Assembly: GCA_947174995.1 (NCBI GenBank) | Contig: CAMWLC010000005.1 | Location: forward strand, 18,122-82,121 | DNA: 64,000 nucleotides | DNA from: an uncultured Porphyromonadaceae bacterium | GTDB taxonomy: Bacteria; Bacteroidota; Bacteroidia; Bacteroidales; Muribaculaceae | Reading direction: 5' to 3' | Shown: positions 3,749-48,781 of the stretch, piece after piece | How positions within the stretch are numbered: the stretch's first letter is position 1 | Layout of the letters: each line of letters opens with the position of its first letter | Translations under genes and position numbers: made by a program | Notes under the pieces: generated by a model | What the model saw: the letters and a program-made list of their open reading frames with translations, nothing else | Told to the model about the DNA's origin: nothing | Databases searched by the model: none

Positions 3749-5170
3749 TCAACGGCGGAGGGAGGCCTCGATGGTCTCCGCCGCCTGGGCTATCTCGCGG
3801 CTGAACGGAAGACGGTCTTTCACAGCGGAAATTCCGTGGAGCACCGTGGCATGGCGGCGATTGAGCTTGAAGCCGATGGCCGAGGAGGATAGTCCCGTGA
3901 GTTTGTTGCTCAGATACATGATCATCTGCCTTGCGTCAGCTATATCCCTGACCCTGCTCTTTGAGAATATTACGTCGGGATTGAGATGGTAATACTCCGC
4001 CGTGGCATCCACGATCATCTCGAAATTAAGGGGCTTCTCAGCCGCAGGCTTGCGGATGGAATTTGCCATCACTGCCTTCGCGAGATCCACCGTGATGGGC
4101 ACGTTGAGCGTTATGGAGCGTGTCAGAATACCCATCACCACACCCTCTATCTCACGCACAGAGTTAGTGGCCGTGTCGGCCACTACCGAAATCACATCCT
4201 CCGGGAGATGAAGGCCGTTCTTCTCCGACTTGAATGTAAGGATCTTGCGCCGTAGTGTGGCATCCGGCTTCTCGAGCTTCTCGGTGATACCCCATTTGAA
4301 ACGGTCGATGAGACGGTCGGCTATACCCTCTAATGCCATAGGGGGACGGTCGCAAGTGAATACGAGCTGCTTGCCGTTCTGGTGCAGGTGATTGAACACC
4401 GGGAAGAGGGCGTCATCGCCCGTCTTGGTCTTGAGGGAGAGTTCCTGGAGATCGTCGAAGAGGAGCACGTCCATCTGCTGAAACCAGTTGATGAACCCCG
4501 GCACCTTCTTCTGTATCACGGCATTGGCATATAGATTCTGGAACTGTCTCAGAGTCGTGAAAAGCACCTTAGCGTTGGGATTGCGCTCCTTGATGCGTAT
4601 TCCGATGGCCTGAATCAGGTGCGTCTTTCCCACTCCGACATCACCATAGAGGAAGAAGGGGTTGAAGTCAGACTTGTCGGGATGGTTGGCGATGTATTCC
4701 GCGATGGTGAAGGGGAGGCGGTTACTGTCGCCCACACAATAGTTCTCGAAGTTGAGCGAGGAATTGAGCTGAGGGTCGAAGCTGCGTCCACCCGAGGCGC
4801 CCTGCGTGCGCTGCGTCCGCATGGCGTCCGGCTGCTGGAGTGACTGAATGAAGCGACCGTTGACGGCCTGACTCTTCGATGGACTCGAAAGCGTGACGCG
4901 GGCTGCGGAGTCGTCCGCTATTATACCCACCTCATAATTGAGCTTGATACCCTCTCCGAACACCCTGCGAAGCGCCGAACTGAGGAGATTGTAGAAATCA
5001 TCCTCATATTTCTCATAGAAAAACTGGCTCGGGAGTCCGATGGTCAGACGGTTGCCTTCAAACTTCAACGCCTTGGCACAAGCGAACCATGCGTCATAGC
5101 GGGCCTGCCCGATATTATCGCGGATAATATCGAGACAATGCTGCCATTTCATTTTGAAGTCTTCCGTCAT
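3749..5170 (-). CDS. dnaA: chromosomal replication initiator protein DnaA
   Basis: Walker A GDVGVGKTHL, Walker B DVLLFDDLQ, C-terminal DnaA-box domain RDIADARQMIMYL...GFKLNRRHATVLHGI. Confidence 0.97.
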   Translation of the reverse strand: MTEDFKMKWQHCLDIIRDNIGQARYDAWFACAKALKFEGNRLTIGLPSQFFYEKYEDDFYNLLSSALRRVFGEGIKLNYEVGIIADDSAARVTLSSPSKSQAVNGRFIQSLQQPDAMRTQRTQGASGGRSFDPQLNSSLNFENYCVGDSNRLPFTIAEYIANHPDKSDFNPFFLYGDVGVGKTHLIQAIGIRIKERNPNAKVLFTTLRQFQNLYANAVIQKKVPGFINWFQQMDVLLFDDLQELSLKTKTGDDALFPVFNHLHQNGKQLVFTCDRPPMALEGIADRLIDRFKWGITEKLEKPDATLRRKILTFKSEKNGLHLPEDVISVVADTATNSVREIEGVVMGILTRSITLNVPITVDLAKAVMANSIRKPAAEKPLNFEMIVDATAEYYHLNPDVIFSKSRVRDIADARQMIMYLSNKLTGLSSSAIGFKLNRRHATVLHGISAVKDRLPFSREIAQAAETIEASLRR

Positions 5171-5402
5171 CGTTGAATTTTGGAGTTTGAGTGATTATGT
5201 GGTCTCCGCGCGGAGACATTCGGAGTATCCAACTCCTACCCTCCCCTTCGTGTCCCTGACACAGCTGTGGCCCCTTGTTTTGCCTACGGGGGAACGTCAC
5301 TGCAAAATAACAACAAAAATTCTTATAAAAAAAATGCTCCGCAGCTTGCAAATTTCGTCTCATTCGCAATATGGCTGATTTTCAATTGCAGTGTAAAAAT
5401 AT

Positions 5403-5446
5403 GACAGGCGTTATTTAGATTTTTTTCTAAACAACGCCTGTTTGCA
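5403..5446 (-). terminator. hairpin downstream of MCE gene
   Basis: ACAGGCGTTATTTAGA-T(7)-TCTAAACAACGCCTGT inverted repeat. Confidence 0.6.
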
Positions 5447-5481
5447 TTTCAGCCTCGGAAACCCCGTGTCGGGGTTCGTTA

Positions 5482-6384
5482 TCAGAGCAACTTGATGCTG
5501 ATGTATCGCTTGGGATTCTTCTTAATGTCCACGATCAGTGAGTCGACGTCCGCCGCCACACGGTTGAGACGGTTGTAGAGCTCGGGATCATTCGTCATCA
5601 TGCCGAGAGTGGAATTGGGGTCGTTGAGCCGGGCGGAGAATTTGGAGAGGTTTTCCGTAAGCTCGTTCACATTATCCACCGTAGTCTGGAGAGGAAGCGT
5701 CTTAAGCTGATAAGAGAGGGCACCTAAATTTCCGGTCACCGTGTCGAGCGTGGCCGTGATCCGGCGTGCATTCCCCATGATGGCCGGTAGCTGTCCACCC
5801 ACGCTCCTGTCCAGGCCCTGGGTGAGTGAGGCCGCCGAGGCAGTTATCTGATCCAGACGCTTGATGGAATTTGCCAGGGCCGGATCGGCCACGAGCATAT
5901 TTATATTGTAAAGTATTGAATCCAGCTTGGGAAGCAAAGTCGTGATTTGAGGCATCACGTCCGTGCTCAGCGAACTCATGAGGTCGGAGGCGCGCCCGGC
6001 CTCCACCGTACCGCCGACGGGAAGCATCTTGCTTCCGCTGCCCAGGATGAGATCCACGTTGGGCCCGCTCATAAGTGTGGGCGTCAGCACCGCTTTCGTT
6101 CCCTCGGGTACGCGGAGGTTCTTGTCAAGAGCCATGACCACCTCGATCTTGCCGGGATGCTCATAATTGAACTTGATTTCCCTCACTTGTCCCACCTTGA
6201 ATCCCTGTATGCTCACTGGTGCCGACACCGCAAGGCCGTCCACCTGGTCATAATAGGCCACATAAAAGTTGGCGGGCTTGAAAAGATTTATTCCCTTCAG
6301 ATAGTCGATTCCGAAAATCAGAATCAGTATGGCGATTACTACGGAGAGACCGATAGTCAGCTCCTTGGTAAACATTTTTTTCAT
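5482..6384 (-). CDS. MlaD/MCE family protein
   Basis: Single N-terminal TM then MCE domain (YYDQVDGLAVSAPVSIQGFKVGQVREIKF). Confidence 0.9.
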   Translation of the reverse strand: MKKMFTKELTIGLSVVIAILILIFGIDYLKGINLFKPANFYVAYYDQVDGLAVSAPVSIQGFKVGQVREIKFNYEHPGKIEVVMALDKNLRVPEGTKAVLTPTLMSGPNVDLILGSGSKMLPVGGTVEAGRASDLMSSLSTDVMPQITTLLPKLDSILYNINMLVADPALANSIKRLDQITASAASLTQGLDRSVGGQLPAIMGNARRITATLDTVTGNLGALSYQLKTLPLQTTVDNVNELTENLSKFSARLNDPNSTLGMMTNDPELYNRLNRVAADVDSLIVDIKKNPKRYISIKLL

Positions 6385-6503
6385 CTTGCCTCGGTATTGA
6401 TAATTTTATAGTGGTTGTCCGGCGACAAAAGGCCGCCATATATATAACGCAAAAAAAGGGACATCGGTTAAAAAAGATTGATTCCCTTTTTCTCGGTGCG
6501 GAG

Positions 6504-7289
6504 TCACTCGCACTCCTCGCGGTATTCCTTCACAGCCTTGAAGATGGCGTCCGCCATACTGTCGACACCCTCCTCGGAGGTCATGAAAGCAGCCGATTCA
6601 GGATTGCATATAAAGTCGAGTTCCACAAGCACGGCGGGCATACACGTGGCCCAAAGCACCCAGAAGCCGGCCTGATGCACTCCCCGGTCCTTGCGCCCGG
6701 CCACACCCACAAGATGTTTCTGCGCCTTCTCCGCGAAGGAAAAGCTCCGGCTGAGGTTGGACTTCTGGGCCATCTCGAAGATTATGTAGGATTCATCGCG
6801 CAGAGGGTCGAAGCCGCTATATTTCGTCTTGAAATCCTTCTCGTACTCTATCACCGAGTTCTCGCGCCGCGCCACCTCCATATTGTTGCCGTCTTTATGA
6901 AGGCCGAGCACATACACCGAGGCACCGGCTACATTTTTGCGGTTCTTGTTTTTCTCGTCGACGGAATTGGTGTGTATGCTCACGAAGAGATCACCCTTGC
7001 TTTCATTAGCCACGGCCGCACGCTCCTGGAGAGAGAGGAAAGTGTCATCATCCCTTGTATAGACCACCTTCACTCCCTTGAGCTTCTTTTTCAGCTTCTC
7101 CCCCAGGCGACGGGCCACGGAGAGATTTATATCCTTCTCTCTTGCACTGTTGTCGATGGCTCCATGGTCCTTTCCGCCGTGGCCGGGGTCGAGGACTATG
7201 GTGAAATCGGTCGCCACAGCCCGCATATTCGGAAGCGGAGAGGCAATCAGGGAGAGAGCGAGCAGCGAACGGAAGAAAAAATTCCTCAT
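6504..7289 (-). CDS. N-acetylmuramoyl-L-alanine amidase
   Basis: Amidase_3 motifs IVLDPGHGGKDHGA, VYTRDDDTFLSLQERAAVANESKGDLFVSIHTNS, VELDFICNPE; start set at MRNFFFRS. Confidence 0.92.
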   Translation of the reverse strand: MRNFFFRSLLALSLIASPLPNMRAVATDFTIVLDPGHGGKDHGAIDNSAREKDINLSVARRLGEKLKKKLKGVKVVYTRDDDTFLSLQERAAVANESKGDLFVSIHTNSVDEKNKNRKNVAGASVYVLGLHKDGNNMEVARRENSVIEYEKDFKTKYSGFDPLRDESYIIFEMAQKSNLSRSFSFAEKAQKHLVGVAGRKDRGVHQAGFWVLWATCMPAVLVELDFICNPESAAFMTSEEGVDSMADAIFKAVKEYREECE

Positions 7290-35215: not shown

Positions 35216-35455
35216 GTGAGTCGGGCTGGTGTGGCCGGAATCGGGATACGGGGATCACTCCCATTCGATTAAGCGTTTGCCCTGCGAGCAGGTTGATATA
35301 TTGCGAGTTATATGTTTATTCTGTTTCATCGGGGATGGAATACGGGGTTGTTTTTGATTTTGCAGGCGCGCTGTAGGACAGTCAGTTAAGCTGAAAATTC
35401 CGTGCTGTCTGCTGGGATTTTCTCTGTCTCTTCCGTTTCAGTTGGCTTTGCGACT

Positions 35456-35764: not shown

Positions 35765-36544
35765 CTAATCTTTTAGATTATTCTGTCGCAACTGATGCAG
35801 GAATCGGTCAATTTCGGACTGGTTGCGAGTGTTGCGCGGATATCCGTTCTCTTCAAACCATGGATTCATTTCTTTGGTTATAATTCCCAGTTTCTCGTAT
35901 AGACCTCTGAACGAGTAAACGTAGAGGTCATTCACAAACCAGCCTACGAAGAGTCGTCCTTCATCTAACCAAACATCCAAATCTATTGGGTACTTAAAGG
36001 TACTGGGTACTTCCAGTTTCTTTTCTGCTTCTACCAGTTGAGGTATGATGGCTTGTTGTATAAGGGCTAACTCTTCGCTGTAATCATCGAAAGAATAACA
36101 GCGTCGAGGGTTCTTCGCATCCATACCCATAAGCCGACGTGAAAGATAATAGCGCACCCGCCATGCTGAATAGCCGTCATGGTAAAACGCAGCGTCCAGT
36201 ATAGCAAATCTTTCGGCAATGGTGGAGAAGGCTCGGTAGTCCTGCCGTTGAGCGAACCAACGATATGCGCTTATATTCTCGAAGAGGTGCCAGTCGATGA
36301 AGCGAAAGAGTTTGATGTAATGCTTTGGGGGATTCGGACTATTCTTGAATGAAAAGTCATCATAATCGCATAGTCCCAAACGTATAAGTTGTGCAATAGC
36401 TTTGTGCGGTATGTTGAAGACAAGGACACAGTTGTGTTCATAATCTATGGCATGAATATAATGTGCATGAGTCAGCCAGTTTGAAACTTCAACTACTGAC
36501 GTGGAATCAAATGGAATGGTAAGGAAGTTGTGAATATGTTCCAT
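35765..36544 (-). CDS. hypothetical protein, third gene of NADAR cassette
   Basis: 259-aa intact ORF, no recognised family (MEHIHNFLTIPFDSTSVVEVSNWLTHAHYIHAIDYEHNCVLVFNIP...). Confidence 0.65.
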   Translation of the reverse strand: MEHIHNFLTIPFDSTSVVEVSNWLTHAHYIHAIDYEHNCVLVFNIPHKAIAQLIRLGLCDYDDFSFKNSPNPPKHYIKLFRFIDWHLFENISAYRWFAQRQDYRAFSTIAERFAILDAAFYHDGYSAWRVRYYLSRRLMGMDAKNPRRCYSFDDYSEELALIQQAIIPQLVEAEKKLEVPSTFKYPIDLDVWLDEGRLFVGWFVNDLYVYSFRGLYEKLGIITKEMNPWFEENGYPRNTRNQSEIDRFLHQLRQNNLKD

Positions 36545-36633
36545 ACTATATAATGTGTAGATTGCTTAAGTTAATTGGGTTGCGCTGAGGGGATACGCAA
36601 CCCAATCTCCGTCGTTTGTGGTGAGCGCAGATG

Positions 36634-37011
36634 TTATCTTTTTATTACGATATGTTTGTTAAGTGCAGGGATGAGGCTCAAAAGAGAGCTGAAAGTATTA
36701 GTGACTTGTGATGGAGTAGTTGGATTCCATTTGAAACCTAACGTATTTGAGATATTGTACAACCTTATGTTGAGACCAATAGCAAGCCCAATCCCTATTG
36801 TTCTATTCATTGTGGTTGCAAGGTCATAATCCCACACCCACATTACCTTAAGACCTGTTATAATGCTGTCGTCAGAAACGATGGATGCAGAAATGCGTAT
36901 AGGGAGCTGAAAGTGTCCTTCGTTGAAAACCCACTCCTCAATGAGCTGTTCTGTCTCACGAGGTGAATTGGGAAGTAGGCGCACCACTGGCGCGCACTCA
37001 TGGCTATTCAT
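36634..37011 (-). CDS. hypothetical protein, second gene of NADAR cassette
   Basis: 125-aa ORF starting about 20 bp after the NADAR stop on the same strand. Confidence 0.6.
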   Translation of the reverse strand: MNSHECAPVVRLLPNSPRETEQLIEEWVFNEGHFQLPIRISASIVSDDSIITGLKVMWVWDYDLATTMNRTIGIGLAIGLNIRLYNISNTLGFKWNPTTPSQVTNTFSSLLSLIPALNKHIVIKR

Positions 37012-37030
37012 AAGCGAAATTGTTTTGCGG

Positions 37031-37798
37031 TTAGAATGTTAAATGATTGCCCAATATGGTGATATTGGCTGAGTTGAGAAGAGCGCGGTCGAAGGGCGGC
37101 TCTATACCATCAATGAGGCAGCATCGGCAAATCATAAGGATTTTGCCCATGTTGTTCTGCCCTTCAAATATTCCAATGTTGCGGACTTTGTTAGTTTCAA
37201 TGTTGATTTTGAGGTCGAGTGCCTTTTGGGTGAGGTCAGCACCACTCCACCTATTTATCCGCTCTGTGAGCTTCCTGCGCTCGGCTATCAACTCTTTATT
37301 CTTGCAGCCCCAAACGGTAGCCGTGCCACCAGTGTCACGAGTGGTCTCTTCAACCAGTATCACCCCCTCGGGGATGGAGAGCAGCTTGGCTCGGAAATCG
37401 GCATTGCCGAGGCACTTCTGCCATACTACAAACAGCATCCAGTGCAAACGGAATGTCGGAAAATCCTCACGGACTTGTGATTTATACTTCGCTTTAGTGA
37501 AACGCTTGGCGGCGTAACCGCTTGTTTGTGAGATGAGTTCGCGCTGAATTGCCACATCTGTAAACTCCCCACAAAGGTAAAGTTGCTCCGATGTCGGCCA
37601 GTTGGCACCTGCAAACTCAAACGGATAGCCACCTGCCATATTGGAGAGCCTAAGCTCAATGCCTTCGACAATGTCAGTGACTTTCTTGAAGCACCACACA
37701 GGCGGCAGTTCAGACGCAACAAGTCGCTCCTCACGCCCCAGGGACGCAACGAGTTCAGACACGGAAGATGTGGTGGAAAGGAAATTGGAATTGCTCAT
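37031..37798 (-). CDS. NADAR-domain (YbiA/DUF1768-like) protein
   Basis: LRLSNMAGGYPFEFAGANWPTSEQLYLCGEF ... LHWMLFVVWQKCLGNADFRAKLLSIPEGVILVEETTRDTGGTATVWGCKN ... GQNNMGKILMICR follows the NADAR motif order. Confidence 0.82.
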   Translation of the reverse strand: MSNSNFLSTTSSVSELVASLGREERLVASELPPVWCFKKVTDIVEGIELRLSNMAGGYPFEFAGANWPTSEQLYLCGEFTDVAIQRELISQTSGYAAKRFTKAKYKSQVREDFPTFRLHWMLFVVWQKCLGNADFRAKLLSIPEGVILVEETTRDTGGTATVWGCKNKELIAERRKLTERINRWSGADLTQKALDLKINIETNKVRNIGIFEGQNNMGKILMICRCCLIDGIEPPFDRALLNSANITILGNHLTF

Positions 37799-38052
37799 AA
37801 CATCTTGTTTTATAGGTTATACTATCGTGTCATTTTCCCACCGTGGCTTGCTATATAGCTCGGTTGGAGCGGCTCATACGTCCGTCTCTTGACACTGAGG
37901 GATTCCCCCTCTTTAGACCGCAAAGTTACAACATCCACCCACCCCCTGTCAAGTTTTCGATGTTAAAAATTGATAAGAATATGGTAGTAATAATTGACAG
38001 GAGCGACCACAAAAATAGGAGACCGAAGCCTCCTATTTTTGTCTCTATGAGA

Positions 38053-39723
38053 TTATAATCCCATGCTTCTGAATATCTGTTGTAGTTGTAATTTTTTCTG
38101 TTGATATTCGCGAACCAAATCATAATCACCTAAATTCTGAGCTAATCCTATCTGTTCATCTTTAATGCACAGCAATCGCTGTTTATACCACATAGCATTC
38201 ATGGGGTCGAGTTGACCTCTCAGCTGGTACGTTCTGAACTCATCCAGTAAAGAGTTGTGTTCATCCGTTAATGATTTTAGTTGGTTTCTCCATCGCATCT
38301 CTTTACTATTTGACGAACTATAAGAACTTGAGTTATTAGATGAATAACTATCGACTGATGAAGATGAAATTTTTGAGAAGTATTTCCCTCTTTCAAATTC
38401 AATTCTATGAGAATCGGAGTCAAATTTGATTACTAAATCATTCCTACTGCCATACTTTATTGTCTCATTATCATGTATCTCATAAGAGCCATTATATGAT
38501 AATACTCCATTCAAATAGAGACGTAGATTATATTCTGAAATGATTAATGTAGCTGAAACCTTTTTAACTCCTCCTAAGTAAACGCCCATATCCCTTGTGC
38601 CGCTATATTCCCATGTGCCATAAAGCCATTCTTTTTGCTTTTGACGTTCTTCTTCCTCGCGTCTTTGACGTTCCTCTTCGGCAGCTCGTTGAAGTTGTTC
38701 ATTATGCTCATCCAACAGTGAAGCCATCAATCCATTTAGATGCTGCTCCATGGCTTTCTGCTGTGTAGAGGTCAAAGTGGAGTTGCCATGATTATCTATG
38801 AAGTATTGGATAGTTTTCTCGTTAGTTTGATAAGGATAATTGTTTACATCCAATATTTGCCAAGTTACTAATCTCGCTCCATTATCACATTCAACCGTAT
38901 CGCGAGCAACAGTGACAGCATAATCGTCGTAGACCTTTTTCTCTTCACGTGTATTGGCGATATCTTTATAGGGAACTGTATATAGGTAGGGGCGATACAC
39001 AATCATCTTATACCCAACAGAATCGGGTGTTTCATGGATAGTTCCTTTGGTATCGACTAATTTTATTTCGTTGTCGTCAAAGACTTCCTGTGTTCCAGTA
39101 TTCCATACCGCACATTTGCCATCTTTGAAGGATGGTAATTTATGACTCACTTCTTCCCAAACAGACCCTATATTTGGACTCTCAGTAAAGTAATCTCCCG
39201 TCAACACCCATTCTCCCTTCGTGTTGATGAAACCGACGCGCTTATTCCATAGTTCTTTATCTGCCTCGTTACGGTCATCGACCACACAAGCCAAACCTTC
39301 GGAGAACTGACCAGGAGGAAAATCATCTGAGAATTGACATGGAATAACCTCTTCTCCTTGGAGATTAATATATCCCCATTTCCCATCACGACGCACAGCA
39401 GCAAGACCTTCGGAAAAAGCATCTATTTGGTCGTAACGTTCAAGTGCTTTAGTAAATTCGGGGGTGATTTTCAGAGTTGGTTTTCCGAAAGTGCTATTAC
39501 CGAGAAGGAAGAAAACACCTGCAAAGACCGCTAATGCACCTACTACTACAAGAGAAAGCCATAATCTTTTATAGGTTTTTCTCGGTTTATGCTGTTGGGG
39601 TTGCAGATTCTGAGACTTGAATGTTTCCTCAATCTGAAATTCAATGGGACAGCCACAGTGGGGGCATTCCGTTGCGCGGTCTGACATCTGACCTCCACAA
39701 TCTTTACAAATTATTAGAGCCAT
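38053..39723 (-). CDS. zinc-ribbon, single-TM, WG (KWG)-repeat protein with C-terminal coiled coil
   Basis: CKDCGGQMSDRATECPHCG; TM WLSLVVVGALAVFAGVFFLL; RRDGKWGYINLQGEEVIPCQFSDDF. Confidence 0.78.
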   Translation of the reverse strand: MALIICKDCGGQMSDRATECPHCGCPIEFQIEETFKSQNLQPQQHKPRKTYKRLWLSLVVVGALAVFAGVFFLLGNSTFGKPTLKITPEFTKALERYDQIDAFSEGLAAVRRDGKWGYINLQGEEVIPCQFSDDFPPGQFSEGLACVVDDRNEADKELWNKRVGFINTKGEWVLTGDYFTESPNIGSVWEEVSHKLPSFKDGKCAVWNTGTQEVFDDNEIKLVDTKGTIHETPDSVGYKMIVYRPYLYTVPYKDIANTREEKKVYDDYAVTVARDTVECDNGARLVTWQILDVNNYPYQTNEKTIQYFIDNHGNSTLTSTQQKAMEQHLNGLMASLLDEHNEQLQRAAEEERQRREEEERQKQKEWLYGTWEYSGTRDMGVYLGGVKKVSATLIISEYNLRLYLNGVLSYNGSYEIHDNETIKYGSRNDLVIKFDSDSHRIEFERGKYFSKISSSSVDSYSSNNSSSYSSSNSKEMRWRNQLKSLTDEHNSLLDEFRTYQLRGQLDPMNAMWYKQRLLCIKDEQIGLAQNLGDYDLVREYQQKKLQLQQIFRSMGL

Positions 39724-39725
39724 AA

Positions 39726-40910
39726 TCAATATGTCGTTATTCTATTTTGCACATTATAGGATTGAATTTTTTGTCGTTCCCATCTGTCTGGAGAGAAAGT
39801 ATCTTCGCCATTAAGATTGACAAAACCAAAATAGGAAGCCTCAGACGATTCGTCCATAAATCTATTATTGTCTACATTTTTTAGATAAGATGGAGATTCC
39901 TCCAGTCTAACTAAAAAGAGTCCATAGCTCGGATTTACATACGACTTTTGGGCTTCTGCATCATAAATTTCATTATGAAAGTACCATTCCTTTGCAGGCA
40001 CAACAATATTTCCTTGCCTATCTTTTATTCCTCTTAAGGTCATGCTATTATCAGAGACACCCCGTGTTTCTTCAAAAACTACATATTCAAATTTGGATGG
40101 GTCAACTTCGTTTACTTGCTCCAACTTATTCCCTTGAAAATCATATAGGAAATATTGATAGTCAACTTGCAGTATAAAACCACGCTCATTGACTTTTACA
40201 GGTCCCGCAACATCACCACCAATCCCATCCCAAATAAGATTGGCTCTAGCTGGGATTGGAATTTCTGTTATCGTTTCGCCTTTCTTATTGATGACACGAA
40301 AATTCTTACTTATTGTGAAACTATAATCTTCATTTTCGTGTGCAGAATAGACTACGGCTTTATCATTGACAAAGTTAGATGCTACATCATCTTTGGAGAG
40401 TTTTATTACTACCTTTCCATCTATATCTATAAAAGATTTACTCTGCTCATTTTCCACAAAGGCAAGCCCATCGTTAAATTTGGGAGCAGTGGGCCAGCCT
40501 GAATATAAGGCAGGAATTATCAAATCTCCCTTTGTGTTGATAAATCCCCACTTATAATCATCAGTCATTACGGGTGCTCTACCATCTGAGAACTCACCAA
40601 TTTGCAAAAATCTGGAGATTTTCTCTGAAAACTCTGGTGTTATTTCAACCAGCTCATCTTCTGAATCTGTTGCCGTGGTCCCAGAGATGTTAGAAGTAGA
40701 AACAGAAACGGAACGTTTTGTGGAAAGAAATACTACCACTCCAATAACCGTTATCATCAAAATACCGCAAACGAGCCATAACCAGTAATTTTTCTTCGTA
40801 GTTATTCCGTTCTTTGCATTATAGGAGGAAAGAACATATCCGCAATGCGGACATTTTTTTGCGCGGTCAGAAACTTGTTGACCGCACTCGTGACATTTAG
40901 TAAGAGCCAT
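39726..40910 (-). CDS. zinc-ribbon, single-TM, WG-repeat protein (paralogue of the adjacent gene)
   Basis: CHECGQQVSDRAKKCPHCG; TM; DDYKWGFINTKGDLIIPALYSGW. Confidence 0.78.
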   Translation of the reverse strand: MALTKCHECGQQVSDRAKKCPHCGYVLSSYNAKNGITTKKNYWLWLVCGILMITVIGVVVFLSTKRSVSVSTSNISGTTATDSEDELVEITPEFSEKISRFLQIGEFSDGRAPVMTDDYKWGFINTKGDLIIPALYSGWPTAPKFNDGLAFVENEQSKSFIDIDGKVVIKLSKDDVASNFVNDKAVVYSAHENEDYSFTISKNFRVINKKGETITEIPIPARANLIWDGIGGDVAGPVKVNERGFILQVDYQYFLYDFQGNKLEQVNEVDPSKFEYVVFEETRGVSDNSMTLRGIKDRQGNIVVPAKEWYFHNEIYDAEAQKSYVNPSYGLFLVRLEESPSYLKNVDNNRFMDESSEASYFGFVNLNGEDTFSPDRWERQKIQSYNVQNRITTY

Positions 40911-41533: not shown

Positions 41534-41757
41534 GGTGGTGATTCGTTAGTTCTGGAGACACAATAAAAAAGAGTGAGCCACCTTAGCGTTTAATCTCACT
41601 AACGCGCTCACCACAAGCGAAGAAATAAGATGTTACGATTACGGCAGCTCACCCAGTCTGCCGTATATATCATTGTTGATGTATATGCGCGACTGAGGGA
41701 ACAGCGTCTTTCGCTTCATCTCTGATTTCTTACTATACGAGGTGGTGATTCGTTAGT
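41534..41757. repeat. 17-bp motif in three copies forming imperfect hairpins
   Basis: GGTGGTGATTCGTTAGT at 41534-41550 and 41741-41757; inverted copy ACTAACGCGCTCACCAC at 41598-41614. Confidence 0.7.
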
Positions 41758-41907: not shown

Positions 41908-42789
41908 ATGCCTATAACTCTTGATACATATCCCCATCCTCAACTTCGCTACACGGTGAGATTGCGATATATCTGCCCCATTTATGGTGAGCTGATAACT
42001 GATTATATCTTTATGAGCAAAGATGAACATGATGAGGAAACATCTTATCGACGGATTTTGGAGGACAAGAAGCGGGAGATAAATACTTTGGTGTATGATG
42101 GTGATGAGAAAATAGCGGAATGGGAAACCATTGCAGAAATTGAGAACACCTTCTATGAGAGTGAAATTCTTTCCGATGCTGTTCTGTCTCTTCTTAAAGA
42201 TGGGAAGGTATCTTTTATAGATGAGTGTGCTACCGAGGAGGACATAAGATTGGCATTATATTACCTTTACTCAATCTGCGACCAGTATAGTAAAGCAAGA
42301 GTTAAGAAGGAATTTAAGCGTCTGCCTTTCGCTCCGTTAAAGAATATAGTTGATAGAATCCTCTCGATATGTAATACTTCAACGAGAACGAAAAGTCAGA
42401 AGAATGGTAGAATTGAAACCGCATGGAGTAAGAAAGACCAGGAACTATCTCGACTGCTCTCGGAACAGTCAAAAGAGGCAGTTGATATGTTTCGTAAGGA
42501 TTTAATCAAGCTAAATGAAAAATGGGGAATCCGTGCCGAGGAAGACAATTATAGAAGAGCCGTAATCATTGCTAAGTTTTTATGTGATTATCCTGCTACC
42601 AAAGGGCTTAATGTGGGCTTTTCTGAGGGGATGAGAATCCTATGTAATTATTTTCGCGTGCCACAAACCACTTATAAGAGAAGGGTGCTGATGCCGTCTC
42701 CCGAAGTTCTTGAAACATTATCAAAGCCTCAACGTGCATTCCAAGAGCAAATTATAGAGCCGTGGAAGAACTTCATCAGTAAATTCTGA
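41908..42789 (+). CDS. hypothetical island protein (293 aa)
   Basis: Intact ORF with consistent coding composition; family not recognised. Confidence 0.65.
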   Translation: MPITLDTYPHPQLRYTVRLRYICPIYGELITDYIFMSKDEHDEETSYRRILEDKKREINTLVYDGDEKIAEWETIAEIENTFYESEILSDAVLSLLKDGKVSFIDECATEEDIRLALYYLYSICDQYSKARVKKEFKRLPFAPLKNIVDRILSICNTSTRTKSQKNGRIETAWSKKDQELSRLLSEQSKEAVDMFRKDLIKLNEKWGIRAEEDNYRRAVIIAKFLCDYPATKGLNVGFSEGMRILCNYFRVPQTTYKRRVLMPSPEVLETLSKPQRAFQEQIIEPWKNFISKF

Positions 42790-42896
42790 CCCCGTTCCCG
42801 AATCGTTCCAAAAATATAAGTTATAAAAGGCTGATATAGTGTCAACTATGTCGGCCTGTTTTTTATTGACACCCGATAAATCGGGGTTGGTGGTGC

Positions 42897-42904
42897 TAAC
42901 TTTG
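42897..42904 (+). promoter_or_regulatory. -7 element TAACTTTG flanked by TTGACACC/GGTGTCAA inverted repeat
   Basis: TTGACACC 42866-42873, GGTGTCAA 42906-42913, TTGACAC 42942-42948. Confidence 0.45.
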
Positions 42905-42962
42905 CGGTGTCAAATCGCTAAGGATAATCCGAAAGCGAGGATTGACACAATGCTATATACAA

Positions 42963-43475
42963 ATGACACAGACCAAATCCAACATCTCCGAAATCTCCAA
43001 GTTCTTCATCAATGAAGAATCTCAAACCGACCTCGCAGACTTCCTCACTTTCACTGCGGATGAGATAGAGGATGCAGTATGCCCGCTTAAGGACATCGAC
43101 CTCGACGATTTCGATAATCTTGATGATGAGGAAAGAGATTATGCAATCAACGGTTTATGGTTTGCTGCTAATATCACTGCCGATGAGGTTTGTCGACTCT
43201 TAGATGAATGTGAGAGAGTTGTGGCTGATTATCGCAGGCTCTCCTCAGCTCTTCGCAGATGGAAGCATGGAGACCCTAATCCACTCATCGACTCAAATCT
43301 CGTGTCCTCATTTCACTGGCTTCAAAGAAAGAGCAAAGAATGTATCATCTACGAATTGCAGCATGAGAATGTAAACGTTCTTTCCAATTATATGATTGAG
43401 GATTTATCCCCTTATTTCGGTGAAGCATACTTTACCGAGGATGCTCTCGACTATATCAACGAAACTATTCATTGA
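42963..43475 (+). CDS. hypothetical acidic island protein
   Basis: ATG at 42963 (MTQTKSNISEISKFFINEESQTDLADFLTFTADEIEDAVCPLKDIDLDDFDNLDDEERDY...). Confidence 0.65.
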   Translation: MTQTKSNISEISKFFINEESQTDLADFLTFTADEIEDAVCPLKDIDLDDFDNLDDEERDYAINGLWFAANITADEVCRLLDECERVVADYRRLSSALRRWKHGDPNPLIDSNLVSSFHWLQRKSKECIIYELQHENVNVLSNYMIEDLSPYFGEAYFTEDALDYINETIH

Positions 43476-43771
43476 TTTATCCAATCCTTCAATTCCGACT
43501 TACTATGAAACAGATAAGTTTTCCCTTCCTCAACTACCATAGCCGTAAAATCCGAGGTCAGCTGTTCATACGCCCCCCCACCAGTTAGCAACTCGGCTAC
43601 TCCAACTTCAAGGGCATTGGCGATATTCTCCAAGGTAGAGAGTTGAGGATTGCCACCGAGGGCACGACTTAGGCTTTCGGGTTTTATCCCCATGGTCTCA
43701 GCCAGTTGTTTGAGCGTCAGCCCACGCTCTGAGCAGAGTTCTTTGACTCGGATTGAAAGTGTCTTATCCAT
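43469..43771 (-). CDS. XRE-family helix-turn-helix regulator
   Basis: RVKELCSERGLTLKQLAETMGIKPESLSRALGGNPQLSTLENIANALEVGVAELL. Confidence 0.9.
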   Translation of the reverse strand: MDKTLSIRVKELCSERGLTLKQLAETMGIKPESLSRALGGNPQLSTLENIANALEVGVAELLTGGGAYEQLTSDFTAMVVEEGKTYLFHSKSELKDWINQ

Positions 43772-44242: not shown

Positions 44243-44890
44243 ATGGAAAAGACCAAGACTATTATCTATGCTCGTGTTTCCACAAGTAGTCAAGATTATG
44301 ACCGCCAGCTTCACGACCTCCGCGAGTATGCCTCCCGCCAAGGCTATGAGGTGGTAAAGGTGTTCAGCGAGAAGATTAGTGGAGCAAAGAAGGTAGAAGA
44401 ACGTCAAGCCATGAGTGAACTACTGGATTACACCAGTAAGCATAAGATTGACAAAATCCTAATCTATGAGTGTAGCCGTCTCTCTCGTCGAGCTGTTGAC
44501 TTCCTCCAACTGGTAGAGACTTTCACTGAGCAGGGCATTTCACTCTATATCTTACAGAACGGACTTGAAACGATGCTCCCCGATGGAAAGGTGAATCCCA
44601 TAGCTACCCTCGTCCTCGGCATATTAGCTCAATTCAACTCCATGGAGAGAGGTCTTATCCGAAGCCGTATGGAAAGCGGATATCGAAATTACCGAGCTAA
44701 CGGAGGGAAAGTAGGTAGAAAGGACGGTTACAACAAACCGCTCGAAGCCTACAAAGAGGAGTATGCCGAGGAGTTACGACTCTTAAAACGAGGCTACAGC
44801 CTTAGAAACATTTCAAAAATCACTGGCACCAGCGTGACTACAATCCGAAAGGTAGCCGATTTAATCAACAAAGAAAAGAAAGCTGTATGA
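44243..44890 (+). CDS. serine recombinase (resolvase/invertase family)
   Basis: IIYARVSTSSQDYDRQLHDL, IYECSRLSRRAVDFL, FNSMERGLIRSRMESGY, C-terminal HTH. Confidence 0.92.
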   Translation: MEKTKTIIYARVSTSSQDYDRQLHDLREYASRQGYEVVKVFSEKISGAKKVEERQAMSELLDYTSKHKIDKILIYECSRLSRRAVDFLQLVETFTEQGISLYILQNGLETMLPDGKVNPIATLVLGILAQFNSMERGLIRSRMESGYRNYRANGGKVGRKDGYNKPLEAYKEEYAEELRLLKRGYSLRNISKITGTSVTTIRKVADLINKEKKAV

Positions 44891-46218
44891 AGATACGTTT
44901 TAACTTGCAATATCCAAATCGCGAAAAGTCATTAATAATGGCGATAATTCGTGATAAAGGGCAGCAGACTAAAAAATCCATAGGAGTCTCTATCCCGACC
45001 CATCTATGGGATAAGTCAAAGCAACGATGCAATGAGGAAGGAGGTTCTACAGTCCGCGAAAAACGCGAATTGCACAAAATCAACAAGCAACTCGATGAGA
45101 TAGAAAAACGATGTTCCCAAGTAGGTAACTTTTGTCTATTTGGCTCAATAAAAATGTCAGACATAGACTTTACCCCTGCTTTCGACAATGCTGTAAAATC
45201 AGCTAAAAGAAAGGTGGATGAGGTGGAAGCCAAGTCTCAGCGCACCCCTACGCAGTTCTTTCAAGAGTACATTGAAAGAATACCTACGATGATATGTAAG
45301 GGTACAAAGCGAAATATCAGCGTTAAGACGCAGGGACATCATAGAGTAATTCTTAAACGGCTTGAGACTTTTATGAGAGATACTCGTACACCTGATAGTT
45401 TCGAGATGTTCAATGAGAAATTTAATGACCGCTTCACTAACTGGGCATATCATATAGCTCGCCCTGGTCGTGGTTATAGCCTCAACTCGGTGTGTGCTAC
45501 TTTTTCAATATTGAAATTGTGGTTAAATGCAGCAACAAAAGAAGGATTGCTTACAACGACTTGTTATAAAGACCTACCAACCAAGGAAGAAACGGAGAAG
45601 AAAATTTCCCTTACAGAAGATGAGATAACGGCTCTATATAATCTTGACATTTCTCAGTTGATGGAAGATGGTCTTATTGACTCGAAATCAACAATGGAAG
45701 TATCGCGTGATTTGTTCATAATTGGCTGTTGGACTGGGCTGAGACGTGCGGACTTGAATCGTATTAACGAGGCAATATTTGACTTTCCAAAGAACATTCT
45801 CACCATCCAAACCCAAAAAACAAAAGCGATGGTTACAATTCCCCTCCATCCTTATGTGAAGGCATTATATGCAAAATACAATGGGAAGTTCCCCAAACTG
45901 GTGGATAAAAGCAAAAGTAATGCACACCTCAAAGAACTGGGACGGCTCGCAGGTCTTAATGATATAGTTCAGCAATCTCAAACGGTTTGTGGTGATAGGG
46001 TATCAAAGAAATATTTGAAGTACCAATGTATAGGTTTCCATACTGCTCGACGAAGTTTCGCGACTAACCTTTATCGCAAGGGTATGCAAACACTCGCAAT
46101 TATGAGCATGACAGGTCACACCACAGAAGAAAACTTCTTGAAATATATCAAAATTGAAAAAGAAGAATATGCGGAAAGGAATCAGGAATTTTTCACTGGT
46201 AACAAGACAGTCGTATGA
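44887..46218 (+). CDS. tyrosine-type site-specific integrase
   Basis: Catalytic signatures GCWTGLRRADL, FHTARRSFATNLYRKG, MTGHTTEENFLKYI. Confidence 0.93.
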   Translation: MKIRFNLQYPNREKSLIMAIIRDKGQQTKKSIGVSIPTHLWDKSKQRCNEEGGSTVREKRELHKINKQLDEIEKRCSQVGNFCLFGSIKMSDIDFTPAFDNAVKSAKRKVDEVEAKSQRTPTQFFQEYIERIPTMICKGTKRNISVKTQGHHRVILKRLETFMRDTRTPDSFEMFNEKFNDRFTNWAYHIARPGRGYSLNSVCATFSILKLWLNAATKEGLLTTTCYKDLPTKEETEKKISLTEDEITALYNLDISQLMEDGLIDSKSTMEVSRDLFIIGCWTGLRRADLNRINEAIFDFPKNILTIQTQKTKAMVTIPLHPYVKALYAKYNGKFPKLVDKSKSNAHLKELGRLAGLNDIVQQSQTVCGDRVSKKYLKYQCIGFHTARRSFATNLYRKGMQTLAIMSMTGHTTEENFLKYIKIEKEEYAERNQEFFTGNKTVV

Positions 46219-47060
46219 AGAAGAACGAACACAAATATCAGTTTACGGCTATGCCCGTGAACTTGACCGCGTGTATGGATGTAAATTGTAGGAGTATGCT
46301 TTTTACGCTCCTGCAATTATCATCATATTACGCAGATGAAGAAGGTTGGTTCTTTCGGTCAAACGCAGACCTTCAAGCACAGAGCCGACTGAGTGAGAAC
46401 TTAGTCAGAGCCACAATCAGCACACTCTACCGATTAGGTGTTATTGACGTTAGGGTGGATGCTAAATCCAAAAATCAATCTTCCAACCGCTTTAAGGTAA
46501 ATGAAACGGCAATGCTAAAATGGGAGAAGTATAGCATTGAAGATTGCATTAAGAACCCCGACTATGCAATAATAACCGACCAGTATAGAACAACTGGATG
46601 GAAGCCATCTTATCTTGACAAATCAGCTAAGGCAACCTCTCAATCACAACAGTCTCTCCCCGAAATTGAGGACAATATAGATAATGCAGCAAATGAAGAG
46701 AATACAGTTAATATACTCTCTGCAGGGGCGCATGAGAGAACTTCTACTCGACCGAAGGAGTTTCACTCACCAGCAATGGCTGAATACAAGAAAGAGGAGG
46801 ATGCCATAATGGAACGGTTGCAAAAGGTTACATCCTGGCTTGATTTTGACAAGATAACCAGGGATGTTGACAAAATACTTATTAACCCACCAAGCGAGAA
46901 AGCAAAGGAATGCACATACCAACGCTTACAAGCCTTGACAGCCTCTAAGATTCCATACTTCACTAAGAAGTACCAGTCAGAACCCGATAACCCAATAGGA
47001 ATGCGTTTTTTCAAGTGGTTGGATGATGTTTGGGGAAAGCTCCATGGTGACGCTACATGA
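46215..47060 (+). CDS. helix-turn-helix (replication-initiator-like) island protein
   Basis: N-terminal winged-helix-like MLFTLLQLSSYYADEEGWFFRSNADLQAQSRLSENLVRATISTLYRLGVIDV; 4-bp overlap with integrase. Confidence 0.65.
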   Translation: MKKNEHKYQFTAMPVNLTACMDVNCRSMLFTLLQLSSYYADEEGWFFRSNADLQAQSRLSENLVRATISTLYRLGVIDVRVDAKSKNQSSNRFKVNETAMLKWEKYSIEDCIKNPDYAIITDQYRTTGWKPSYLDKSAKATSQSQQSLPEIEDNIDNAANEENTVNILSAGAHERTSTRPKEFHSPAMAEYKKEEDAIMERLQKVTSWLDFDKITRDVDKILINPPSEKAKECTYQRLQALTASKIPYFTKKYQSEPDNPIGMRFFKWLDDVWGKLHGDAT

Positions 47061-47128
47061 CATCGGGGTCATTTTCTCTCATCGGGGATGAATAGCGGGG
47101 GCGATTCTCTCAAAACTGGCAAAATAGA

Positions 47129-47251: not shown

Positions 47252-48781
47252 TTATTCCCACTCGATGGTTGCCGGCGGCTTGGAGGAGATGTCGTAGACC
47301 ACGCGGTTGATGCCGCGCACCTTGTTGATGACTTCATTGCTCACCTCGGCGAGAAGCTCGTACGGGAGATGTACCCAGTCGGCCGTCATGCCGTCGGTGG
47401 ATATGACAGCTCTCAGTGCTGCACAGCTCTCGTAGGTGCGTTCGTCACCCATCACTCCAACGCTCTTTACGGGAAGAAGCATCACTCCCGCCTGCCACAC
47501 CTTGTCATACCATCCCCACTTGCGCAGGGCGTTGATGAAGATGGCATCGGCCTCCTGGAGAATGCGCACTTTCTCCGGAGTCACGTCGCCCAGTATCCTT
47601 ATGCCAAGGCCGGGACCCGGGAAGGGATGGCGTCCGAGAAGGGTCTGATCTATTCCCAAAGCACGCCCCACACGTCTCACCTCATCCTTGAAGAGCAGAC
47701 GAAGGGGTTCCACCACCTTGAGGTTCATCTCCTCGGGAAGACCGCCCACATTGTGATGGGACTTGATGGTGGCCGAAGGACCGTTGACACTCACGCTCTC
47801 GATGACGTCGGGATATATCGTGCCCTGGCCCAGCCAGCGAGCACCCTCTATCTTGCGGGCCTCCTCGTTGAACACCTCCACGAAGTCCCTGCCGATAATC
47901 TTGCGCTTGCGCTCGGGATCGGTCACGCCGGCCAGGTCGGCGTAAAACCTGTCGGAGGCATCCACGCCCGTCACGTCGAGACCCATGCCGCGATACTGCG
48001 CGAGCACATCTTCAAATTCATTCTTTCTCAGCAGTCCGTTGTTGACGAAAATACACTTCAGATTGCTGCCGATGGCGCGGTGAAGGAGCACGGCGGCGAC
48101 AGTGGAGTCAACGCCGCCCGAAAGACCGAGTATGACGCGGTCATTGCCGAGACGCTCCTTCAGGTGGGCCACGGTGGTCTCGATAAAGGAGGCGGGGCTC
48201 CAGTCGCCCGAGCATCCGCAGATACCCCGCACGAAGTTGGAGAGGAGCTGCGTGCCGTCGGTGGAGTGATACACCTCGGGGTGGAACTGTATGCCCCACG
48301 TCAGTTCCCCGGCGATATGATAGGCTGCTACGCGCACATTCTCTGTGCTGGCGATTATCTCATATTCAGCCGGCACGGAGGTGATGGTGTCGCCATGCGA
48401 CATCCACACCTGCGTGCGCGAGGGCAATCCCTGCATCAGGGGATCCTCGGGTGCCTTTACGGTCAACATGGCGCGCCCGTATTCCCTCGAGGGGGCTCCG
48501 TGCACCTCGCCGCCATACTCGCTTGCGAGCAACTGCGCTCCGTAGCACACTCCAAGCAGCGGAAGGTGTCCCTTGATATGGCTGAGGTCAGGCTTCGGAG
48601 CCTCGGCGTCACGCACCGAGTAAGGACTGCCGGAGAGGATGACACCCTTCACCTCCGGTCCGGGCGCGGAGGGTATTTTATTGAAGGGGAGAATCTCGCA
48701 ATACACATTCAGCTCCCTGACGCGGCGGGCAATGAGCTGCGTGTATTGCGACCCGAAATCTATGATAAGAATTTTTTCCAT
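47252..48781 (-). CDS. guaA: GMP synthase (glutamine-hydrolysing)
   Basis: GATase [15 protein letters not shown]-PPase [17 protein letters not shown]-terminal KPPATIEWE. Confidence 0.97.

Follow-up and report, generated by a model that had tools for sequence, protein, structure and literature searches.

A three-gene NADAR cassette in the 64,000-nucleotide stretch of DNA analyzed here (the window), from a gut bacterium of the Muribaculaceae, forms one conserved operon-like unit, in which a promoter and a SAM-I/IV riboswitch are followed by the NADAR gene, a gene for a 125-aa protein (g125), a conserved hairpin, and a gene for a 259-aa protein (g259). The cassette is carried by a 12-kb element that has integrated into the guaA 3′ end, and the operon stands at the far att end of that element. 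The anatomy of the locus is well supported: the gene order, the linkage, and the mobility were observed in several genomes, and the riboswitch was identified with a covariance model. As to function, we tentatively favor, at somewhat less than even confidence, a mobile defence (conflict) module that would be expressed when SAM falls, and not a DarT–antitoxin pair. An earlier note on this DNA, which had proposed a toxin–antitoxin or anti-phage module on an integrative island, described neither the riboswitch nor the promoter, the intergenic hairpin, or the guaA att sites.

The three open reading frames lie on the minus strand at positions 37031–37798 (NADAR), 36634–37011 (g125), and 35765–36544 (g259), separated by gaps of 19 and 89 bp. 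The first encodes a 255-aa protein of a long-insert subfamily, which matched the Pfam NADAR family (PF08719) with an E-value of 4.6e-9 and 37.2 bits against a cut-off of 35.1; its membership in the superfamily, which the earlier note had read from motif order, is thereby confirmed. It also matched E. coli YbiA (2b3w, 4.4e-4) and, weakly, TIGR02464. Its match to DS32_2, the NCBIfam model of a "NADAR family anti-phage protein," reached 9.6e-18 and 63.9 bits, below the cut-off of 240. Searches of viral contigs with this protein returned generic NADARs only.

The active site was mapped by alignment to YbiA together with the E+7 spacing. In the characterized C7 NADAR, E88 and K95 are catalytic or essential, the third position being D171 in the DarT1 type or the superfamily glutamate, and K95 is essential for the hydrolysis of guanine-ADP-ribose (PMC11543638); the glutamate of the YbiA type has been described separately (PMC11125620). 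The window NADAR retains E71 and E150, and the basic residue is replaced by E78. The DarT1-type aspartate, which in C7 stands two residues before the superfamily glutamate, is not found in the window protein, where the sequence reads ILVE150. The equivalent of position 78 is E, A, L, or Q in all 21 clade A and B members of the alignment, clade A being the close-type NADARs, and K or R in all 13 other NADARs aligned, including the ART-linked ones. Most members of the subfamily, clade A among them, carry in addition an insert of about 40 aa before GQNNxGKILM. As E71 is kept and the equivalent of C7 K95 is replaced by E78, the protein belongs to the NADAR superfamily but is not a canonical guanine-ADP-ribose hydrolase. 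The loss of the basic residue thus leaves a DarTG-type antitoxin role, which the earlier note had considered, unsupported. The altered pocket and the long insert suggest instead that the subfamily has another ligand or serves in sensing.

Neither partner gave a convincing match in Pfam, NCBIfam, PHROGs, or PADLOC, and PADLOC found no defence system at the locus. The absence of a canonical DarT from both proteins, which had been noticed before, held in Pfam, NCBIfam, PADLOC, and PDB searches; the further idea that they might encode another ADP-ribosyltransferase found no backing, as similarity to ART, DarT, or macrodomain proteins was found for neither, with the limit that the structure model of g259 is poor (pLDDT 49). 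Alignment with homologues showed that g125 of the window is a single-repeat form, equivalent to repeat one of a 260-aa relative that has two, and the two repeats of this family are homologous (94.6% in a repeat-versus-repeat hhalign comparison). In the AlphaFold2 model of the 260-aa relative (pLDDT 83), each repeat folds as β-α-β-β-α-α-β. Foldseek returned no hit below an E-value of 0.001 for this model; its hits are scattered, with tandem ferredoxin-like proteins (ACT, RRM, and the AcrB porter) among them, and all have poor TM-scores; there is no ART among the best 50 PDB matches listed. For g259, no match was found in Pfam or PDB, and Foldseek on its model is uninterpretable. A HEPN motif considered from the g259 sequence was discarded for want of a conserved histidine. 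Searches of viral contigs returned no relatives of either partner.

The linkage of the three genes, for which the earlier note had asked for a neighborhood survey, is kept in other genomes. A search of the genome collection gave seven more loci with close NADARs, of which nearly all carry the label Muribaculaceae or Bacteroidales. Among 397 genomes of the host's family, 26 have any NADAR hit and eight have a clade A protein; g125 is present in exactly those eight of the 26, and g259 in seven of the eight, next to the g125 family. It also occurs in one more genome (G395), where the NADAR gene is cut by the contig start. In the eighth clade A genome (G463), an unrelated 105-aa open reading frame follows g125 on a short contig that then ends. 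This linkage of g125 (8/8) and g259 (7/8) indicates that the cassette is a real unit. NADAR is its constant part, being 76–89% identical across copies with one exception pair at 70% that involves a truncated copy, and g125 (26–98%) and g259 (38–98%, in the same position) vary together. Three forms of g125 were found, namely the first repeat alone (125 aa; the window, G562, and G657), both repeats (about 260 aa), and the second repeat alone (130 aa; G427), and the pairing of these forms with matching g259 alleles suggests that the two partners work together.

Between the two partner genes, a conserved CGCTCACCAC motif with an RNA hairpin (36569–36635, minus strand) is kept in 9/9 loci, even where both flanking genes have diverged, and the stem shows a few compensatory and wobble changes. 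The hairpin could serve as a regulatory RNA or a processing site, or mark a recombination joint. Its GCGCTCACCACAA motif recurs inverted at 41604–41620 of the window, and GGTGGTGATTCGTTAGT is repeated at 41534 and 41741.

The leader of the operon carries a predicted Bacteroidetes-type promoter (37921–37952, minus strand), with TTGACA at 37947–37952 and TAACTTTG at 37921–37928; the Bacteroidetes −7 consensus is TAnnTTTG. This TTGACA...TAACTTTG arrangement precedes the riboswitch in all eight clade A copies, with TAACTTTG standing 28 nt upstream of the aptamer in seven of them and 34 nt in the eighth. The aptamer (37796–37900, minus strand) matched the SAM-I/IV model RF01725 at 49.4 bits against a gathering score of 41.1, abuts the NADAR start codon, and was the sole match above gathering in an Rfam scan of the element. 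The seven other clade A cassettes (L002–L006, L008, and L089) scored 46.7–55.6 bits, so that 8/8 pass, and RF01725 also precedes two wider-family NADARs (L019 and L045). The conserved core motifs AAGAG, CCAACC, and GGTGG are present. Across 14 aptamers, 70 of 70 cells of the P1 helix are paired, with compensatory changes in four of the five pairs; shuffling of the arms gave at most 66 paired cells in 2000 shuffles, a figure which ignores relatedness and is to be read as support, not as a probability.

Several observations bear on the ligand of this riboswitch. Elsewhere in Bacteroidales, metK stands behind an RF01725 riboswitch, and metH-like and metY-like genes stand behind weaker matches. 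By analogy, SAM is the expected ligand, and from established riboswitch knowledge the default logic of the NADAR riboswitch would be "on when SAM is low." The third P1 pair, presumably the ligand-proximal one as in SAM-I structures, is G–C in all eight clade A copies and A–U in the other six aptamers, which would seem to count against taking the SAM ligand and the switch direction as given. In the window's host genome, the NADAR leader is the one RF01725 match, metK is under a different SAM switch (SAM-II), and no SAM-I riboswitch was found. Above the cut-off, RF01725 occurs in nine of 119 family genomes: five times before NADARs, twice before members of a family called X384, once before an N-formylglutamate-amidohydrolase-like gene, and once before a 144-aa gene. 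Metabolite riboswitches ordinarily govern metabolism. In the literature searched, there was no paper linking riboswitches with NADAR and none joining riboswitches with both anti-phage defence and SAM.

Other loci of the survey deserve mention in their own right. The X384 family, which has no Pfam match, recurs beside NADARs (L019, L043, and L052), and a SAM-I/IV riboswitch stands before X384 in two genomes; its loci are L108 (1824–2930), L109 (1603–2244), L019 (1–954), L043 (5236–6381), L052 (7278–8432), L042 (64–1128), and L047 (10217–11263). The N-formylglutamate-amidohydrolase-like genes (L107, 1604–2311; L120, 1281–1502) begin exactly at the riboswitch. An ART-like protein adjoins a lysine-bearing NADAR at L053 (1853–7016), L055 (5823–6991), and L056 (5649–6804), which are possibly true ART–NADAR pairs, and the L053 cluster adds a microbial PARG and an ADP-ribosylglycohydrolase. 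At L046 (5474–6610) and L051 (5706–6887), NADARs of the window protein's subfamily carry a fused XRE-type helix-turn-helix. A 141-aa protein beside a wider NADAR at L042 is a possible relative of the N-terminal part of g259, though a weak lead, and L009 of Bacteroides ilei (4981–6613) holds a C-terminal NADAR remnant with two short proteins, one of them faintly like the g125 repeats.

Carriage by an integrative island, as the earlier note had supposed, was borne out by guaA-derived att copies at both ends and by a gene order common to other copies. The guaA-side att, CATCGAGTGGGAATAA (47252–47267, minus strand), is the guaA 3′ end itself, and a copy of it, AATCGAATGGGAGTGA (35255–35270, minus strand), forms the far end; DNA similarity between loci ends sharply at window positions 35253–35259, where this copy stands, and it marks the sharp end of the shared DNA in other loci too. 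Near the two ends of the element lies a terminal direct repeat of 30 nt (35318–35347 and 47071–47100, plus strand), whose two arms are 77% identical and 11,753 nt apart. Reading from guaA, the element carries a 281-aa gene (46215–47060, plus strand) without a Pfam match, possibly a replication or regulatory protein; a tyrosine integrase (44887–46218, plus strand; PF00589/PF13102/PF17293); a serine resolvase (44243–44890, plus strand; PF00239, 1.4e-35); a 75-aa gene; an XRE regulator (minus strand) and two uncharacterized genes, h293 and h177 (plus strand), which together span 41908–43771 and are common to the copies; variable cargo; and then NADAR, g125, g259, and the att site. The variable cargo, often zinc-ribbon/WG-repeat proteins (PF14903), is present in some copies only and comprises two zinc-ribbon and WG-repeat proteins in the window (38053–40910, minus strand). 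Such proteins adjoin the cassette there and among the upstream genes of L002, L003, and L005. The element has no methionine or SAM gene.

G562, G427, and G587 repeat the gene order, as do G358 and G399 up to the ends of their contigs. An integrase beside guaA with att at both ends is complete in the window, G562, G427, and G587; G358, G399, and G657 show a partial guaA element where contigs end, and on the G657 guaA contig the NADAR start lies directly beside guaA without other element genes. The integrase protein is identical in the window and in G562, which belongs to another genus, indicating recent transfer. Only cassette-bearing genomes hold relatives of the 281-aa gene at 70% or above, and all six genomes with close relatives carry the cassette. 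It is absent from three genomes with distant relatives (46–57%); L102 and L103 are genomes of this distant kind that lack it. In an empty-site comparison, the left-flank gene was not found in five relatives. No close relative was found in phages and plasmids.

These features could be joined in the following mechanism. High SAM would keep the operon off and low SAM would switch it on, as in the metK, metH, and metY leaders. SAM might fall when an invader destroys or consumes it (by phage SAM lyases or hydrolases, or by heavy methylation) or under methionine starvation. NADAR would then be made and would act on, or sense, an ADP-ribose-type ligand through its altered pocket, and the fast-changing g125/g259 pair would supply recognition and/or effector function. 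The whole module would serve defence and also benefit the element. A more specific version, riboswitch-gated anti-phage immunity in which a SAM drop (e.g., by SAM lyases disarming restriction-modification) releases a NADAR-centered effector with diversifying partners, is possible but on the unlikely side. It was counted for defence that the nearest curated family is an anti-phage NADAR, although the match is below cut-off; NADAR-domain systems are among those studied with DefensePredictor (PMC13092281).

Metabolic and counter-defence roles are serious rivals to the defence reading. A metabolic role is possible since RF01725 serves methionine and SAM genes elsewhere: the NADAR N-glycosidase and its partners would handle a metabolite related to SAM, NAD, or riboflavin under the same riboswitch control as methionine genes, and the element would simply carry a fitness gene. 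The position of SAM-I/IV before metK, and more weakly before metH-like and metY-like genes, speaks for this, as do the NADAR/YbiA members that are N-glycosidases on riboflavin intermediates (PMC9503650) and the weak TIGR02464 match. Yet with no methionine or SAM gene on the element, a sparse and element-borne distribution, and partners that diversify fast around a constant NADAR, which is unusual for housekeeping enzymes, we regard this explanation as unlikely. Counter-defence or element protection, in which NADAR strips ADP-ribose added to element or host by defence systems or by toxins of rivals, or breaks down immune signals derived from NAD, has been proposed as a role for phage NADARs (PMC9503650); it fits a cassette that is element-borne in nearly all copies whose context can be read, and ART–NADAR, PARG, and ARH clusters exist in genomes of the same family. 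This role is distinctly unlikely, as the lost basic residue, essential in C7 NADAR (PMC11543638), argues against ordinary de-ADP-ribosylation and the SAM switch is left unexplained.

The loss of that residue weighs also on the toxin–antitoxin explanation, in which g259 or g125 would be an unrecognized ADP-ribosyltransferase or other toxin and NADAR its antitoxin. NADAR–ART pairs such as DarT1–NADAR and YarT–YbiA are known (PMC11543638, PMC11125620), the three genes are tightly linked, and a cryptic ART fold could go unnoticed given the poor model of g259. But Pfam scans found no ART in the partners, the β-α-β-β-α-α-β fold of the g125 relative matched no known structure significantly and has no ART in the best 50 PDB matches listed, and NADARs of the same bacterial family that do have an ART partner retain the lysine and adjoin a recognizable ART. 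A riboswitch turning toxin and antitoxin on jointly would be odd as well, and we consider this explanation improbable. That g125 and g259 are decayed genes, a possibility the earlier note had raised, or chance open reading frames beside a NADAR gene might be suggested by the absence of database matches and by the 125-aa form being half of the 260-aa form; intact frames in the same gene order in other Muribaculaceae, with conserved, syntenic homologues down to 26–38% identity, refute it and leave it with almost no probability.

The pairing of a riboswitch with NADAR is unexpected and suggests that a presumed conflict or defence module may come on at low cellular SAM, so that the depletion of SAM by invaders can be linked, in a directly testable way, to ADP-ribose-type chemistry. 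With the host's own metK on SAM-II, the conserved RF01725 riboswitch ahead of the mobile NADAR operon suggests that mobile elements bring along a metabolite sensor of their own for timing a conflict gene. Furthermore, a NADAR subfamily is defined here by the loss of a residue that guanine de-ADP-ribosylation is known to require, which suggests another substrate.

By the tests made, DS-32, DarT1–NADAR, and YarT–YbiA appear as neighbors of the window cassette and not as families to which it belongs. The DS-32 anti-phage protein (NF053876; DS-n names as in DefensePredictor) is the closest curated NADAR model, and the comparison with it, 63.9 against 240 bits, covers the NADAR protein alone. DarT1–NADAR (DarTG1) is likewise a small, defence-like cluster of genes built with a NADAR-fold protein, but the window cassette has no DarT, no DarT1-type aspartate, and no basic residue, and it has two unrelated partners and a SAM riboswitch. 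The YarT–YbiA pair of myxobacteria shares a YbiA-type glutamate NADAR with a neighboring gene; compared to it, the window cassette has partners without ART similarity and an insert of about 40 aa before GQNNxGKILM, and it is mobile and riboswitch-controlled. Compared to the SAM-I/IV riboswitches before methionine and SAM genes elsewhere in Bacteroidales, with which it has the gathering score, core motifs, and P1 pairing in common, the window copy has a mobile NADAR operon downstream and the clade A third P1 pair, G–C and not A–U. Finally, the element resembles other guaA-site integrative elements in its tyrosine integrase next to guaA and its att copies of the guaA 3′ end, and differs from them in carrying, at the far att end, a cargo unit with its own riboswitch.
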